Below, in pieces: positions 1 to 20,239 of a DNA stretch of 20,239 nt; within the stretch, counting starts at the first letter, position 1; every line of letters starts with the position of its first letter. Below the pieces are notes generated by a model, which saw only the letters and a program-made list of their open reading frames with translations, was not told the origin of the DNA and did not search any database. Location: the IMG/VR virus record IMGVR_UViG_3300047508_000359, positions 1 through 20,239 of that record. The stretch is one strand, 5' to 3'. Both the position numbers and the translations under genes were made by a program. Source of the stretch: a virus.

Positions 1-333
1 CCCCGAGGCCGACATCGAGAGAATCGCCTTTTTGTACTGCTCGACCTGCTTGGTGGTGGTGTCCGTGTGCGTCTGGATGAGCAGCATGGACTTCTGGTAG
101 TCCAGGCTCATCTTGGTCGCGGCTATACCTACTGCCGCGAGGGGAAGGGACACGTGCGTCGTCCACTTCTTGCCGACACTCGCCATCGTGGAGCCGACAG
201 AGGACATCTTGGCCCCGGCGGCTTCCATGCCCGTTGCGGCGGAGTTGGCCGCCGTCGCCGTTTTCGCGAACGCCCGCTGCGCCGAAGCGGAGTCACCGAT
301 GATGTTGACAACGAGGGTTCGCTGGGCAGCCAT
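1..333 (-). CDS. Tail tape measure protein, N-terminal part (cut by window edge)
   Basis: The first 111 residues are readable and the frame is still open at base 1. The tape measure protein sets tail length and is the scaffold on which tail tube subunits stack; it usually exceeds 700 residues, so most of the gene lies to the left. The visible part starts MAAQRTLVVNIIGDSASAQR and continues with Ala/Ser/Met-rich helical sequence (GMEAAGAKMSSVGSTMASVG), as is typical of tape measure N-termini. It lies directly downstream of the tail assembly chaperone, the canonical place. The ATG at 333-331 has only a weak upstream GTGGGG, and an intrinsic terminator ends about 15 bases before it, so expression may be limited. 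The family call rests on position and composition. Confidence 0.82.
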   Translation of the reverse strand, partial: MAAQRTLVVNIIGDSASAQRAFAKTATAANSAATGMEAAGAKMSSVGSTMASVGKKWTTHVSLPLAAVGIAATKMSLDYQKSMLLIQTHTDTTTKQVEQYKKAILSMSASG

Positions 334-348
334 CAACGAACCCCACGC

Positions 349-382
349 AAAAGAGGCCCAGCCGTCACCGTAGCTGGGCCTC
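349..382 (-). terminator. Intrinsic terminator between chaperone and tape measure genes
   Basis: Read on the minus strand, a perfect 10-bp GC-rich inverted repeat (GAGGCCCAGC / GCTGGGCCTC; arms 373-382 and 353-362) encloses a 10-base loop and is followed at once by TTTT. The stop codon of the frameshifted chaperone product (365-367) lies inside the loop. In the opposite direction the stem is not followed by T residues, so it should act on leftward transcripts. It would reduce, not abolish, transcription into the tape measure gene. Confidence 0.7.
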
Positions 383-499
383 GGTCATCTTCTCCCCGAC
401 ATAGGCAACCCCGTCCGTGATCTCCCTTTCCGAGAGATCCTCCATTTGCCATGGCTGCCACCCGAAAACGTCCGCTAGGACTGGGGACCAGAGGTCTCG
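365..499 (-). CDS. Tail assembly chaperone, -1 frameshift extension (gpT-like)
   Basis: In the -1 frame relative to the chaperone gene, an open stretch runs from base 568 to a TGA at 367-365 and has no good start codon of its own. From about base 499 it encodes 44 residues including FGWQPWQMEDLSEREI, a Trp-Pro-x-x-Met-x-x-Leu-Ser-x-Arg-Glu pattern like the second half of lambda G/GT-type chaperones. Joined to residues 1-106 of the upstream frame it gives a product of about 150 residues. Such frameshifts are nearly universal between the tail tube and tape measure genes of siphoviruses. The exact slip point is inferred, since no canonical XXXYYYZ heptamer is present. An independent 26-residue ORF from the internal ATG is less likely because it has no ribosome binding site. 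Confidence 0.65.
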   Translation of the reverse strand, partial: RDLWSPVLADVFGWQPWQMEDLSEREITDGVAYVGEKMTEAQLR

Positions 500-816
500 G
501 GGGTTTTCGTAGGGCGCTTGGGGTCGGGCTTTACCTCCTCCATCGTGAGCCGACCCGTGTTCAGAACGTCATCGAGTGTTGCCGTCTTACGGCGACGGCG
601 CATTGCAAGGTAGGCGAGGAACGCTTGCACCTTCTCGGAGAAGAACCACTCGCTCCCCATGGCGGCGGTCCAGGGCATCTCCATGTACTCCTCAAACGCG
701 ATGCGATCGCGCAGTGGGATTTTTTCGATGCTCAACTCCAGGTCATAGGAGTCCCCATCGATCGTGTAGCGGAAGACCCGAGGCCCCTCCTCTTTTTTCG
801 CTTTGCGTGCAGCCAT
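475..816 (-). CDS. Tail assembly chaperone (gpG-like)
   Basis: The gene encodes 113 residues and starts at an ATG with a strong AAGGAGAAG upstream. It begins with a basic MAARKAKKEEG and continues with FRYTIDGDSYDLELS, then a helical region with PLRDRIAFEEYMEMPW. This matches phage tail assembly chaperones that bind the tape measure protein during tail assembly and are absent from the virion. It lies between the tail tube block and the tape measure gene, as expected. The C-terminus is Lys/Pro-rich (KPDPKRPTKTP) and is the part replaced when ribosomes slip into the -1 frame. The normal stop is TAG at 477-475. The family is judged from context, size and the presence of the frameshift partner. 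Confidence 0.8.
   Translation of the reverse strand: MAARKAKKEEGPRVFRYTIDGDSYDLELSIEKIPLRDRIAFEEYMEMPWTAAMGSEWFFSEKVQAFLAYLAMRRRRKTATLDDVLNTGRLTMEEVKPDPKRPTKTPETSGPQS
497..508 (-). promoter_or_regulatory. Probable -1 ribosomal frameshift site
   Basis: On the minus strand the zero-frame codons here are AAA ACC CCC GAG, giving an AAAACCCCC run (507-499) near the end of the chaperone gene. The run falls in the only window (568-475) where both the zero frame and the -1 frame are open. A CCC codon can re-pair fully with CCC after a one-base backward slip. It is not a textbook heptamer, so this is the best candidate and not a proven site. Confidence 0.4.
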
Positions 817-9602: not shown

Positions 9603-9693
9603 CGGACCCCCCCAGAACGAAGTCGATATCTGTCAAAAGTGTGCTCGGCGGGTGTCCAGGCGTGGAGCTGCTTGAGGTCCCCCCCCTCCCGGC

Positions 9694-9936
9694 TCACAAG
9701 CTATCCCCCAACTCCTCAAGGGATTCGCGCGCCATGCTCCGAGCCATGGCCTCGACATCGCCGGCTGCATCGGTCAGCAGTTCAGCGCTGACCGGACACC
9801 ATGCCTCCCGACCATCATCGGTTGTGAAGCGATAGGCGGCTACCGGAATGGGTCCTTCCATCAAATCGCATATCGACGGGGGCATTCCCTCAACGGGTTC
9901 ATGGTGTAAGGAGGTTGAGGTGATCATGTCAGGCAT
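9694..9936 (-). CDS. Small acidic hypothetical protein before the terminase genes
   Basis: The 80-residue protein begins MPDMITSTSLHHEPVEGMPP and ends with a helical acidic tail (EAMARSMARESLEELGDSL). The middle, AAYRFTTDDGREAWCPVSAE, looks like a short beta hairpin. The ATG at 9936 has AAAGGA at normal spacing; a second ATG four codons later is possible. It lies between the HNH gene and the small terminase gene in the same direction, with about 90 bases of non-coding DNA after its stop. No family is recognised. Confidence 0.7.
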   Translation of the reverse strand: MPDMITSTSLHHEPVEGMPPSICDLMEGPIPVAAYRFTTDDGREAWCPVSAELLTDAAGDVEAMARSMARESLEELGDSL

Positions 9937-9980
9937 CGCGCCGTCCTTTCTCGCTGAGCCTCGCGCTCAGCTTGTCGTTG

Positions 9981-10286
9981 CTATCCGCGCTTCAGGTTGT
10001 GCTGAGCGCAGAGCGTTCGGAGGTTTGAGTCGTCGTCGGTTCCTCCATCGCGCTTGCGCTTGATGTGGTCGACGTGCAAGTCGGTGATGGCTGGGCAGCG
10101 CTGTCCGTTCTCGATGGCAGTGCAGCGGTAGCCGTCTCGTTGGAGGATGCGCTCGCGTTGAGTGCGGGACTGGCGAGTGGAGCCGCGCTGTCCTGTAGCT
10201 AAGTGCTGGTGAGAGCGGCAGCGGCCTTGCTTGATTGCGATCTCGGGACAGCCTCGCTCAATGCAGACAGTCTTAGCTCGTGGCAT
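9981..10286 (-). CDS. HNH endonuclease near the terminase genes
   Basis: The 101-residue protein carries an N-terminal Cys/His knuckle (Cys8, Cys13, Cys23, His26) and a complete HNH motif: CTAIENGQRC (Cys55, Cys64), DLHVDHIKRKRDGGTDDDSN (His71, His74, Asn88), and TLCAQHN (Cys93, His96). HNH proteins next to terminase genes assist terminase in cleaving cos sites in HK97-like phages; similar proteins are also homing endonucleases. Position favours the packaging role. The start is the ATG at 10286. A longer frame to 10388 would run into the opposite plus-strand gene and is rejected. The Shine-Dalgarno is weak. The gene is divergent from 10332-10526, with about 45 bases between them. Confidence 0.85.
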   Translation of the reverse strand: MPRAKTVCIERGCPEIAIKQGRCRSHQHLATGQRGSTRQSRTQRERILQRDGYRCTAIENGQRCPAITDLHVDHIKRKRDGGTDDDSNLRTLCAQHNLKRG

Positions 10287-10331
10287 GGGATAGGGTCGAA
10301 ACTGACCAGCGATCAGCGAAAGGCAGGCAGG

Positions 10332-10526
10332 ATGGCAACCCGGATCACCTTCAACGGCACGACTGGCAATGAACAGCGCAGCGTTCAAGAGACTGCGCAG
10401 GAGGTGGCCGATCAGATCAATGCCGGCTCGGACAATCCGCGCTATACGGCGATCTTCACCGATGCCGCATCCGAGAAAGGCTTCAGTATCCGCGTCGGCT
10501 CGATCATTGAAGTCGAGGAGGAGTAG
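10332..10526 (+). CDS. Solitary plus-strand small protein
   Basis: This is the only convincing gene on the plus strand. It encodes 64 residues from an ATG preceded by AAAGGCAGGCAGG. The sequence runs MATRITFNGTTGNEQRSVQE, a helix (TAQEVADQINAGSDNP), the strand YTAIFTDAASEKGFSIRVGS, and an acidic end (IIEVEEE). The beta-alpha-beta pattern, ending with Gly-x-x-x-x-Val-x-x-Ile-x-x-Val-Glu-Glu, resembles tiny phage proteins of unknown function. Its stop is 2 bases from the stop of the convergent gene at 10529. Because it faces both neighbours it needs its own promoter in 10287-10331 or in the HNH gene. No clear -35/-10 pair was seen. Codon choice looks coding. Confidence 0.68.
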   Translation: MATRITFNGTTGNEQRSVQETAQEVADQINAGSDNPRYTAIFTDAASEKGFSIRVGSIIEVEEE

Positions 10527-10528
10527 CC

Positions 10529-10792
10529 CTACTCATCATCGTCATCGGGGTCGGATGCGCTATCGCGCAATTGGTCCGCCGCGACATCAGCACTCGCTTG
10601 CAGCATCCCTAGCGCGGTCCAAGCCATAGGCGCATCCGTTCCATCGATACCGCCTCCGGCTCGGTGAGCGAGATAGCGGCTCTCATTAGGGCCTGCGATG
10701 TCAATCGTGAGGCACCACTGAACTGCGATCTCGCCTTCACCTAGGTATTCGTTCAGGGCTTCATGGACCCGGCGAGCCGCTTCATCGCTCAT
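10529..10792 (-). CDS. Small hypothetical protein with very acidic tail
   Basis: The 87-residue protein begins MSDEAARRVHEALNEYLGEG, a helix, then the strand EIAVQWCLTIDIAGPNESRY, a Gly-rich loop (AGGGIDGTDAPMA), a helix (WTALGMLQASADVAADQL), and ends in SDPDDDDE. It starts 4 bases after the stop of the 48-residue gene upstream, with GAGGGG as a ribosome binding site, so it is probably translated in coupling. Its stop faces the stop of the plus-strand gene. The sequence looks like a small alpha/beta phage protein; no function is recognised. Confidence 0.72.
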   Translation of the reverse strand: MSDEAARRVHEALNEYLGEGEIAVQWCLTIDIAGPNESRYLAHRAGGGIDGTDAPMAWTALGMLQASADVAADQLRDSASDPDDDDE

Positions 10793-10796
10793 CCCC

Positions 10797-10943
10797 TCAA
10801 CCCCTCAACGTCCACGCCAGCGCCCCAAGAGCCGCCACGGTGGGAAGGGCTAGGGCTATGTCTGGCTTTCTGGAGCTAGGTTTGCGGGGTGGGGTGAAGG
10901 TCTCGAAGGTGCCGGAGACTGGAAAGGGGGATTGGGGCTTCAT
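10797..10943 (-). CDS. 48-residue putative single-pass membrane protein
   Basis: A short ORF runs from the ATG at 10943 to TGA at 10799-10797, with a good GAGGTGAGG ribosome binding site. The N-terminal 28 residues are hydrophilic, basic and Pro-rich (FETFTPPRKPSSRKPD). They are followed by the hydrophobic stretch IALALPTVAALGALAWTL (18 residues), long enough to span a membrane, and a short Arg-Gly end. The stop is 4 bases from the next ATG. It might be a small membrane effector or a holin-like peptide, but a short single segment is no proof. It was recognised from frame, ribosome binding site and fit between neighbours. Confidence 0.55.
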   Translation of the reverse strand: MKPQSPFPVSGTFETFTPPRKPSSRKPDIALALPTVAALGALAWTLRG

Positions 10944-11035
10944 GGCCTCACCTCTCGCTTGCGGCCCAGCTTGAGCGTCTTGCCTGCGATTGCTTCATAT
11001 GGGAGGTCCACTTCGCGGCTGACCTCGCGGTGATC
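10940..11035 (-). other. Probable true C-terminal frame of the zinc-knuckle gene
   Basis: One base back from the frame of the zinc-knuckle gene, codons from about 11035 encode 31 residues, DHREVSREVDLPYEAIAGKT followed by LKLGRKREVRP. These have a helix-like charged pattern and more GC at third positions. This frame stops at TGA 10942-10940, giving an ATGA overlap with the next gene, the linkage used by many neighbouring genes. A fusion at the CTGCTGCTG run would give an 88-residue protein. Programmed slippage, a real mutation and a sequencing error are all possible. Confidence 0.4.
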
Positions 11036-16638: not shown

Positions 16639-16849
16639 CGCTCAGCTCGGCTTCCTCTAGTCGTCGAATCTCCCAGTGATCCTCAGCATCAGCGGGGAGG
16701 GATGCATCGTGGGTCAGAAGCTCCCCGACGTGCGCCTCGCAGGAGTGCAGGACGCACGTGTAGGGGTTGGAATCGGCCTTATCGATGATTTCGTAGTCGG
16801 CACCTAGCGCACAGGCAACCTGGCAGCAGTGCAGATCAAGCGGCGACAT
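16631..16849 (-). CDS. Small Cys/His protein
   Basis: The 72-residue product begins MSPLDLHCCQVACALGADYE and holds PYTCVLHSCEAHVGELLTHD. Two pairs (Cys8-Cys9 with Cys13; Cys-x2-His-x-Cys-x2-His) make a compact Cys/His zinc cluster likely. A helical acidic end (EDHWEIRRLEEAELSDG) follows. Proteins with a Cys-x-x-His-x-Cys-x-x-His-Val-Gly pattern recur in actinophage genomes without known function. The ATG lies 14 bases inside the end of the methyltransferase gene, so it is translated in overlap with that gene, and its stop overlaps the next gene. Confidence 0.67.
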   Translation of the reverse strand: MSPLDLHCCQVACALGADYEIIDKADSNPYTCVLHSCEAHVGELLTHDASLPADAEDHWEIRRLEEAELSDG

Positions 16850-17534
16850 TGATCTCTCCCTTCTCGGTCGCTTTCAGGTGAGTGAGGAGGTAGGAGCCGA
16901 TGTGTTCGGTGTAGGCGGGTGGGATGGCCTGCGTGAGCGCCTTCCACGGCATCCAGTCGATGCCCATTGCGGCTTGCCCTTCTTCAAGGGAGCGGGCGCG
17001 GCGGACTCGGTATGTGCCGCGCTCTTTGCTCGTCTGCGGGTGGTCGCCGTAGACGGCGATCGGCTTCGGGGCGAGATGGTGGGCGCAGGGAGCGGCGAGC
17101 ATCGGAAAGCTCGTCTCGAACAGGCGGTGCCGCCAGACGTTGAGCCCGAAGGCTGAGCCGCAGAGCCGTGTCGGGTTGACGAGCGGAGCGCCCGGCACGT
17201 TCTCGATGACGTAGGGCAGACCCGTGGCTTGAAGTAGCTCGCGGGTCTCGGGGATCAGATTGACCGCGCCTTTGCCGGCCCCCTTGCCGAAGTGCCGCAT
17301 CGACGTGAACGCCTGACACGGTGGCGAAGCGTGGATGGCGTCGAAGCGGCCGTCCCACAAGTCGTTCTCCAGGAGGTCTTCGAGCACTTCGAGCGCATCG
17401 CGTTCCGTGAAGTCATCACCGCAGTAGTTCGGCTGCGGGTTGATATCCACCCCGACCACGTAGAACCCGGCCTGCTGGTAGCCGCGAGCACTCCCACCGG
17501 CACCGGAGAATAGGTCTAACAGGCGCGGCTTCAC
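16836..17534 (-). CDS. DNA (cytosine-5) methyltransferase
   Basis: The 232-residue enzyme transfers a methyl group from S-adenosylmethionine to cytosine C5 in DNA, most likely protecting phage DNA from host restriction. Motif I is LLDLFSGAGGSARGYQQAGF (5-24), motif IV with the catalytic Cys is SPPCQ (70-74), motif VI is ENV (111-113), motif VIII is RHRLFE (135-140), and motifs IX-X appear as AIPPAYTEHIG (203-213). It is shorter than typical enzymes of 320 residues or more, with only about 50 residues left for the target recognition domain. The start is a GTG overlapping the previous gene by 4 bases, within a 17-bp direct repeat. All catalytic motifs are present, so activity is likely. The sequence target cannot be read. 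Confidence 0.92.
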   Translation of the reverse strand: MKPRLLDLFSGAGGSARGYQQAGFYVVGVDINPQPNYCGDDFTERDALEVLEDLLENDLWDGRFDAIHASPPCQAFTSMRHFGKGAGKGAVNLIPETRELLQATGLPYVIENVPGAPLVNPTRLCGSAFGLNVWRHRLFETSFPMLAAPCAHHLAPKPIAVYGDHPQTSKERGTYRVRRARSLEEGQAAMGIDWMPWKALTQAIPPAYTEHIGSYLLTHLKATEKGEINVAA

Positions 17535-17547: not shown

Positions 17548-17824
17548 CTCGTATGGCCGCGTCGATTGCCTCGGCACGTGAGTCAAAGAGGCCGTCCCAG
17601 AACTCCCAGCGCGACCAGTCTTCGATGTCAATGACCGGGTTGGTCTCGATAGACCCCTCCCATTGCCAGATGCCCCAAACCTCGCGGTCCTTCGGCCAGT
17701 CGAGTCCGCTGGACGGCCCCTCGGTGTAGCGGCAGATGCGCCAGAGAATCCGGCGGTCGTTGGAGGGCAGCAGGTAGTCGCCGGCGGCGATCCTCTGGAG
17801 CGAATATTTGCGTTCTTCGCTCAC
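17531..17824 (-). CDS. 97-residue hypothetical protein flanked by direct repeats
   Basis: This small protein starts at a GTG with AAGGGAGCGGTGGC upstream. The sequence MSEERKYSLQRIAAGDYLLP is followed by SNDRRILWRICRYTEGPSSG, the Trp-rich strand segment VWGIWQWEGSIETNPVIDIE, and a C-terminal helix (FDSRAEAIDAAIREGAVA). A related pattern of Tyr-Leu-Leu-Pro-Ser-Asn-Asp...Leu-Trp-Arg-Ile...Gly-Pro-Ser is conserved among small actinophage proteins of unknown role. It lies between two DNA methyltransferases of different chemistry. Its boundaries coincide with a 17-bp direct repeat, so the gene looks like a cassette. Overlaps are 4 bases on both sides. Confidence 0.78.
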   Translation of the reverse strand: MSEERKYSLQRIAAGDYLLPSNDRRILWRICRYTEGPSSGLDWPKDREVWGIWQWEGSIETNPVIDIEDWSRWEFWDGLFDSRAEAIDAAIREGAVA

Positions 17825-17837
17825 GCCACCGCTCCCT
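17821..17837. repeat. 17-bp direct repeat, right copy
   Basis: This is the second copy of tcacgccaccgctccct. Here it covers the last codons and stop of the adenine methyltransferase gene (SKGAVA) and the ribosome binding site and GTG start of the 97-residue gene. The encoded ends agree: SKGAVA here and REGAVA at the other copy. Confidence 0.85.
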
Positions 17838-18432
17838 TAGAGGAGGGGTGGGGCATTTCTGCGGTTCCGAGGGACTGGTCGCCCCAGTAATCCCAGCCGA
17901 ACCTTGCGCGGCGGGCGAATAGCTCTAGGTAGGGGCCGGGGCTGACTTGCTCTACTGTGTCGAGGAAAGCGTCGGGCTTGACGCTATGGGCAGTCCGGGT
18001 CCAGTTGAACCAAACGGTGTCGATGCGTTTGAGGTGTTTGAGCGAACCTCGGCGGCCAAAAAGGATGAACTCTGCGCTCTGGGAGAAGGTCCCGCCGGGG
18101 CCAATGCCGCGTGGGGTCTTAGCCCATACGAGAAGCTGCGAGAAGCGGAAGCCCCACGCCTCCGCCACTGCGAAACTATCTCGCAGGTAGCGATTCGTCG
18201 TCCAGAGGAAGAGGTGGGCGTCGGCCTCTGCCATCTTGGATACTGGAAGGGCAGCGATCTCTTTGACCGTCATTGACCCGTAGGGCAAACTCCGGCGAGC
18301 ACGGGGATCGAGGCCGCGAGGGTCGGCCGTCGATGCAAACGCCGCTTTCGGAGATGTACTCACGGCAGGCCACCCTTCGTCATAGCTCCATGGCGGGTCC
18401 GCCACAATCGTTCGGTAGCGCTTCTCAGACAC
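17821..18432 (-). CDS. MT-A70 family N6-adenine DNA methyltransferase
   Basis: The start is the GTG at 18432 (8-base overlap with the preceding gene), giving 203 residues; a longer frame to 18636 runs over that gene and is not used. The catalytic DPPW sits at 12-15. The fold is supported by HLFLWTTN (73-80), QLLVWAKTPRG (99-109), AEFILFGRRG (120-129), HSVKPD (149-154) and YLELFARR (168-175), the typical MT-A70 order. The enzyme methylates adenine N6, most likely in DNA, and would protect phage DNA from restriction or mark it for regulation. It is followed by the 97-residue gene and the cytosine methyltransferase. No cognate restriction enzyme is obvious apart from the nearby HNH protein. Confidence 0.92.
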   Translation of the reverse strand: MSEKRYRTIVADPPWSYDEGWPAVSTSPKAAFASTADPRGLDPRARRSLPYGSMTVKEIAALPVSKMAEADAHLFLWTTNRYLRDSFAVAEAWGFRFSQLLVWAKTPRGIGPGGTFSQSAEFILFGRRGSLKHLKRIDTVWFNWTRTAHSVKPDAFLDTVEQVSPGPYLELFARRARFGWDYWGDQSLGTAEMPHPSSKGAVA

Positions 18433-18688
18433 CCGCCACCTCCTGCTCTGGGGGGTCCGAAACGAAGCGCTGGAAGATCGTCTGTGCGGGGGAGGCGGCT
18501 TCGTGTCGCGCCGCATCCCGTTCAGCGGTTGAGCGGCGTTTACGATCCGGGCCGCACCAGCCGCAGAGGCAGGTAGCGACGATGATCCCGCTGTAGTCGG
18601 AAGTGGAGGTCCGGTGGAAGTTCGCCGGACGGGCAATCAGGGTCCCGTTGGGGGACGCCGCGACCAAAGTGTCGATCGCGCCCCTCAC
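18425..18688 (-). CDS. Small Cys-cluster protein between HNH and MT-A70 genes
   Basis: The start is the GTG at 18688, in a GTGA overlap with the HNH gene, giving 87 residues. The N-terminal part is beta-like (GAIDTLVAASPNGTLIARPA). A CLCGWCGP cluster is followed by a basic helix with a terminal His (DRKRRSTAERDAARHEAAS), a Cys-x-Cys-x2-Cys...His spacing compatible with zinc binding. Similar Gly-Trp-containing knuckles followed by Arg-x-x-Ala-x-x-x-Ala-x-x-His helices are frequent in actinobacterial phage proteins. It overlaps the adenine methyltransferase gene by 8 bases. A longer ORF to 19330 covers the HNH gene and is a shadow. Confidence 0.66.
   Translation of the reverse strand: MRGAIDTLVAASPNGTLIARPANFHRTSTSDYSGIIVATCLCGWCGPDRKRRSTAERDAARHEAASPAQTIFQRFVSDPPEQEVAGV

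Positions 18689-19459: not shown

Positions 19460-19463
<4 letters not shown>
19242..19463 (-). CDS. Small basic protein, DUF3072-like
   Basis: The 73-residue product is strongly basic at the N-terminus (SEAFRKAERARQRRRPATPN), then QRHRLNTLARQAGMEPPRVY and a helix (DASDAIKRLESYLAQPVLE). The sequence after the basic tail, Thr-Pro-x-Gln-x-x-x-Leu-x-x-Leu-Ala-x-x-Ala-Gly, followed by an Ala-x-x-x-Ile-x-x-Leu helix, resembles the DUF3072 domain found in many actinobacterial and phage proteins. Its function is unknown. The start GTG overlaps the previous stop by 4 bases. The assignment is by sequence impression only. Confidence 0.62.

Positions 19464-20239
<776 letters not shown>

Follow-up and report, generated by a model that had tools for sequence, protein, structure and literature searches.

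The slip heptamer of the phage lambda tail assembly chaperone gene is GGGAAAG, and in Escherichia coli dnaX two tRNAs re-pair on an A_AAA_AAG heptamer with a Shine-Dalgarno (SD) spacing of 10 nt. Lambda produces a short chaperone (gpG) and a frameshift-extended one (gpGT), which act with the tape measure protein, and the dnaX signal combines an upstream SD-like element with a 3′ stem-loop (PMC5009743). Spacings of 9-14 nt have been given for SD elements that stimulate -1 frameshifting (PMC5009743). Sharma et al. (2014, PMC4066793) described signals built on a Z_ZZN tetramer, both in E. coli reporters and in IS elements. In the reporters, C_CC.C and C_CC.U were shift-prone, the C_CC.Y tetramers being the fourth and fifth of six that responded (range 0.26-5.6%), with an SD stimulator window of 6-17 nt and a hairpin start within 4-10 nt (PMC4066793). 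Among IS elements A_AA.G and U_UU.[U,C] predominate, and the available part of that article mentions a fifth IS-element tetramer without naming it. No natural programmed use of C_CCY tetramers was found reported in the literature searched; the Xu et al. (2004) survey of phages, which lies outside that search, may contain the phiC31 site.

The phiC31-like phages (Lomovskayavirus / Vashvirus; gp41/gp42 in phiC31) have a K(P/A)DP motif near the zero-frame stop of their chaperone and a -1 extension ahead of the tape measure gene. Most of them have no in-frame heptamer; GAC C_CCY lies in their overlap, with an upstream purine tract capable of SD-like pairing. In the available text of the genome note on Sycamore, a Lomovskayavirus-like phage, the slip sequence put forward is another one, Mu-like and with one change (PMC8407750).

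Here we describe a tail chaperone locus in a viral contig of 20,239 bases, the single virus record IMGVR_UViG_3300047508_000359, referred to throughout as the window. It shares the listed features with the phiC31-like loci, from which it differs in the codons at the slip site (CCC AAG, against CCT ACC), in the distance from tetramer to stop (42 nt, against 15 nt in phiC31) and in a stronger SD-like element. Unlike lambda and dnaX it has no heptamer. Its SD-like element is spaced at 9 nt, and its predicted stem-loop is a possible stimulator at most.

The chaperone locus and its two reading frames

The structural genes of the window lie on the minus strand, and the tail genes follow the order tail tube, gp10-like gene, chaperone, extension, tape measure:

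9238-7709, minus strand: terminase
7657-6296, minus strand: portal
5630-4677, minus strand: capsid
2315-1329, minus strand: tail tube (PF18906, E 2.4e-28)
1328-879, minus strand: gp10-like gene (weak phrog_5 match)
816-475, minus strand: zero frame of the tail assembly chaperone (G-type), 113 aa (chaperone profile of relatives)
568-365, minus strand: -1 open frame, its post-slip part a putative T-type extension, P0002 (extension profile, codon usage, weak PF06528 and phrog_6416 matches)
1-333, minus strand: start of the tape measure protein gene, truncated by the contig end (phrog_1533, tail length tape measure protein, E 5.1e-17)

The window appears mosaic between 4677 and 2315, its head genes and tail tube being nearest to different loci. 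The capsid and portal are 74-81% and 66-74% identical, respectively, to those of loci L005, L014-L017 and L019, and no tail-tube match was present in the examined stretches of those contigs; the tail tube is nearest to L089-L101 (33-39% identity). Within the contig stretches examined, the sole tail-tube match among the head-gene relatives (portal up to 74% identical) is in L066, at 28% identity. A further locus, L008, has a portal 50% identical to that of the window and an ORF at 9638-11008 that reads as a putative contractile-tail sheath protein. Elsewhere on the minus strand of the window, a gene at 19460-20239 carries tandem ESAESAAWSAK-type repeats and is cut by the contig end; long open stretches are also present there in other frames. 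From their translations, the ORFs at 16836-17534 and 17821-18636 encode a putative C5 cytosine methyltransferase and a putative MT-A70-like methyltransferase.

The zero frame runs from an ATG at 816 to a TAG at 477-475. Against a pooled chaperone profile of relatives it ranks first of 549 six-frame segments (E 2.5e-7, next 0.37). A profile of phiC31 and L103 chaperones finds it at E 6.8e-5 and one of phiC31 chaperones alone ranks it first at E 0.023; L103-only and L089-only profiles miss it, and PHROGs and Pfam searches gave no chaperone match. Judged by these profile comparisons, the zero-frame product is a tail-chaperone homologue. No close relatives of it, in which conservation could be followed directly, were found in phages or viral contigs, and a degenerate EEVKPDPK-type pattern also found no match.

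Reading in the -1 frame stays open between 568 and a stop at 367-365 (67 aa). A first-pass annotation of the locus had placed the end of the zero frame and the span of the -1 frame at these positions and had proposed a GT-type extension lacking a start of its own, reached by the -1 frameshift expected of siphoviruses (lambda G/GT family); on recomputation the positions hold, and comparison supports the frameshifted extension. Openness is weak as proof at 64% GC, where 252 of 560 off-frame 35-codon test segments were also open. Two features do go beyond chance, namely codon usage past the zero-frame stop and similarity to extensions of related phages. In a codon usage model learnt from six structural genes, the -1 frame past that stop scores +0.395, the remaining frames giving -0.446 and -0.467; among segments of ten held-out ORFs, +0.395 is reached by none of the 560 off-frame and by 41% of the 280 in-frame ones. 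A profile built on nine related-phage extensions ranks the -1 segment first of the 549 segments (E 0.0038, next 2.1), and one of eight longer extensions finds it at E 0.0014 (next 0.018). In hhalign, the extension matches those of the relatives at E 8.7e-5 with a probability of 60%. It also matches phrog_6416 (tail) at E 0.047 and, weakly and below the curated cut-off, PF06528 Phage_P2_GpE (E 0.006), which we take to be the P2 E′ extension. Profiles of phiC31-type, L103-type and pooled extensions did not find it. These matches, weak but top-ranked, point to homology with T/E′-type extensions.

The sole start codon in the -1 frame is an internal ATG at 445. A product begun there would have 26 aa and lack the FGWQPW part and most of the conserved region, which argues against the extension being a separate small gene or a re-initiation product, a reading to which we assign a very small probability. 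In three records out of ten compared, those of P318, Samy and Endor2, two chaperone genes are indeed annotated without a join, and the SD-like sequence near the gene end could be read in the same way, as such SDs precede the ends of many phage genes (PMC5009743). However, no start codon lies at initiation distance after that sequence (AGGAGGT, 539-533), and the frame layout is that of the annotated joined chaperones of Lilbooboo, phiC31 and Samora.

Homopolymer runs are prone to sequencing error, and the overlap contains one, a C run. The window being one single virus record (20,239 bases), the loss of a base there could have split one continuous gene. We consider this only marginally more probable than a separate gene, and still very unlikely, as zero-frame codon usage remains of the coding type right up to the stop, and two overlapping frames are also the layout in related loci with a resolved chaperone region. 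A lambda G/GT-type chaperone with a -1 frameshift is well supported by homology, gene order and codon usage.

Candidate slip sites in the overlap

No in-frame X_XXY_YYZ heptamer is present anywhere in the zero frame, as the first-pass annotation had noted for the overlap. The following elements bear on where slippage may occur:

539-533, minus strand: SD-like element AGGAGGT, perfect, 9 nt upstream of the slip tetramer
523-517, minus strand: most likely slip site gaC_CCC_AAG, with tetramer C_CC.C and codons GAC (525-523), CCC (522-520) and AAG (519-517)
505-499, minus strand: rival slip site A_ACC_CCC, part of the AAAACCCCC run, without an SD-like element upstream
457-515, minus strand: possible downstream hairpin, beginning 4 nt past the tetramer (-20.3 kcal/mol)

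The earlier annotation had located a AAAACCCCC run at 507-499 correctly, and had regarded it as the only slip-capable sequence of the overlap. In fact the overlap contains three in-frame C_CCY tetramers (523-520, 514-511 and 502-499) together with G_GGT and A_AAG (532-529). What sets the first of these apart is the AGGAGGT upstream of it. Its predicted duplex with the 16S tail has an energy of -13.1; of 5373 internal codon positions (37 chosen ORFs with predicted starts, first 20 codons skipped), six show pairing at least this strong, and two of the six are this same element. Among 66 in-frame C_CCY tetramers only that at 523-520 has an SD-like element of this strength. The heptanucleotide itself has nine copies in the window, two of them in minus-strand orientation; 2.5 would be expected for the two strands together. 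The tetramer, of the C_CC.C type reported as shift-prone, is 42 nt ahead of the stop and 21 nt upstream of the tetramer in the AAAACCCCC run, and its 9-nt spacing from the SD-like element falls within the published -1 range.

The start of the predicted hairpin also lies within the published distances. The stability of the hairpin is not unusual: among windows of equal length, 24% are just as stable, and the 97-nt region has a z of -0.45. Downstream structure, being within background, was dropped as positive evidence.

The same frameshift might instead take place at A_ACC_CCC (505-499), where a proline tRNA in the A site would re-pair fully and a threonine tRNA in the P site would do so with one mid-codon mismatch. 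This site includes an in-frame C_CC.C 21 nt before the stop, a distance near the 15 nt of the phiC31 site and near the 26-nt training-set mean given by the PRFect authors (PMC10885494). By the reading of the name alone, AACCCCC would fit ‘twofive’, one of the eight backward motif names of that paper. However, it has no SD-like element at the right distance (duplex energy +0.3), and it lies within the 5′ arm of the predicted hairpin, itself not significant. We regard slippage here as unlikely, though well short of negligible, and the segment AAA ACC CCC GAG proposed in the first-pass annotation is probably not the slip site. The predicted junction peptide would be KPDPQAPYENPR for a slip at 523-520 and TPRDLW for one at 505-499; with either site the fusion would have 150 aa, in agreement with the product of about 150 residues first suggested.

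Slippage elsewhere in the overlap, at A_AAG, C_CCT (514-511) or G_GGT, would have the support of weak SD-like pairing at most (-1.7, -2.9 and -0.2, respectively). Transcriptional slippage would have to act on runs of four A and five C, whereas the A or T runs cited for it in bacteria span 9 bases (PMC5009743). Such other routes are the least probable of the readings considered.

Signals at related loci

Single-protein tail-tube scans returned no relative from viral or genome contigs, and an alignment was needed; a viral-contig scan with the tail-tube alignment returned 61 loci. The chaperone tables leave out L100, L141 and L148, L102 is the same contig as L066, and L111, L129 and L130 were dropped as having no tape measure gene. 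A wide automatic scan over 145 loci yielded 83 candidate overlaps, and 73 of these lacked a heptamer; many are evidently false or of other tail types, which makes the count unusable, and L101 alone is taken from the scan.

In the HMM alignment, the window KPDP falls on the K(P/A)DP of phiC31-like chaperones, which sets GAC CCC AAG on GAC CCT ACC and places the phiC31 slip codons on 525-520 and not on A_ACC_CCC; the matching stretch is short and could be convergent. A peptide filter yielded 36 phiC31-like overlaps, of which 23 are distinct. GAC CCT ACC is kept in 21 of these, five codons ahead of the stop. Three further loci outside the filter have GAC CCT ACC (L116, L117) or GAC CCT TCC (L124), and L138 and L142, whose overlaps measure 28 and 43 nt, retain C_CCT as their sole tetramer. 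Upstream SD-like energies range from -8.1 to -1.4, with a median of -6.4 over 19 distinct contexts; of the codon positions in phiC31 (n=1184), 6.8% reach this median and 1.3% reach -8.1.

The two remaining distinct phiC31-like overlaps, in L109 and L139, have a canonical A_AAC_CCT where the others have G_GAC_CCT, which suggests that tetramer and heptamer signals interconvert. The A_AAC_CC of these loci is also one base away from the A_ACC_CCC of the window, a point in favour of that site. A G_GGG_AAG in the phiC31 chaperone (L003, 2149-2155) resembles a slip site, and an annotator could misplace the join there. We rejected GGGGAAG as the phiC31 slip site, since among relatives its GGG codon varies (GGC, GAA, CAG) and GAC CCT is constant.

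Outside the phiC31-like set, L103 and L122 have 22-nt overlaps ending ACC CCG GAC CCT CAG stop, with SD energies of -9.8 at CCT and -10.0 at CCG; C_CCG is therefore an alternative slip tetramer in this pair. The overlap of L066 contains only C_CCT, 63-66 nt before the stop. The AT-rich relatives L140 and L145-L147 have in-frame A_AAA_AAA runs in theirs.

L089-L099 (IMG/VR; tail tube 36-39% identical) resemble the window in gene order and in a homologous extension, and differ from it in carrying a C_CCA_AAA heptamer. This heptamer is in frame in 11 of 12 loci examined in the L089-L101 group (L100 left out), 84-165 nt ahead of the stop; L098 and L099 are identical in the chaperone region. The exception, L101, has no heptamer and a GAC_CCC with an SD energy of -5.3. 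Ten other actinophages have a heptamer in nine overlaps (in seven of them G_GGA_AAC, at the stop or 3 nt before it) and none in Endor2. The window signal is therefore a minority type in a small sample, and not unique. A C_CCY tetramer signal is probably common to the window, the phiC31-like phages and the L103/L122 pair.

Proposed mechanism and significance

On this evidence, the window very probably encodes a frameshifted chaperone that is of ordinary type except that its signal is not a heptamer; the exact slip base is an inference. We consider it likely that the programmed -1 frameshift of this lambda G/GT-type chaperone takes place at the SD-like element and C_CCC tetramer (523-520), with slipping, base position and efficiency being the predicted parts of this proposal. 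Most ribosomes would produce the 113-aa protein. On others, AGGAGGT (539-533) would pair with the 16S anti-SD and pause or strain the ribosome as it decodes GAC CCC AAG (525-517). A proline tRNA would then slip from CCC (522-520) to the overlapping CCC (523-521), either in the A site, as for the tested tetramers, or in the P site, and the -1 frame would continue as ...EEVKPDP-QAPYENPRDLWSPVLADVFGWQPWQMEDLSEREI... to give the 150-aa fusion. Both products would act in tape measure and tail tube assembly, as described for lambda (PMC5009743).

Several points count against the tetramer. With CCC in the P site, AAG would re-pair poorly as CAA, and with CCC in the A site, GAC would re-pair poorly as CGA, so that full re-pairing is available to only one tRNA. 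The heptamers of the nearest tail-tube relatives (11/12) and other actinophages (9/10), the low rank of C_CC.Y among the responding E. coli tetramers, the non-significant hairpin, the variable SD strength in the phiC31-like set, the extra C_CCG in L103/L122 and the Mu-like proposal for Sycamore (PMC8407750) were also weighed against it.

The first-pass annotation had suspected an unusual slip signal. The departure from the heptamer rule is real; however, C_CCY was already known as shift-prone in E. coli (PMC4066793), and the absence of a heptamer is not in itself novel, because the PRFect paper, in its available text, reports XXXYYY missing from most annotated SEA-PHAGES frameshift overlaps (PMC10885494).

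More tentatively, and with somewhat less than even confidence, we propose a recurrent -1 class in the tail chaperones of GC-rich phages, in which an SD-like tract, located some 9 nt upstream of GAC C_CCY (read as xDP in the protein), would promote slippage of a single proline tRNA. It would comprise the phiC31-like loci, L103/L122, possibly L101, and the window, and would be convertible to A_AAC_CCT (L109, L139). If this is true, SD plus GAC C_CCY would be a further natural -1 class and the first natural programmed use of C_CCY in the literature searched. Tail-chaperone frameshifts are often sought via XXXYYYZ. Should an SD element with C_CCY take its place in some GC-rich phages, annotators may overlook the slip or put it at the wrong site, as probably happened in the first-pass annotation; misplacement could also occur in phiC31-like phages at the non-conserved GGGGAAG. 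The locus would also offer a compact natural system in which to test, on actinobacterial ribosomes, how a single tRNA slips under SD pausing.
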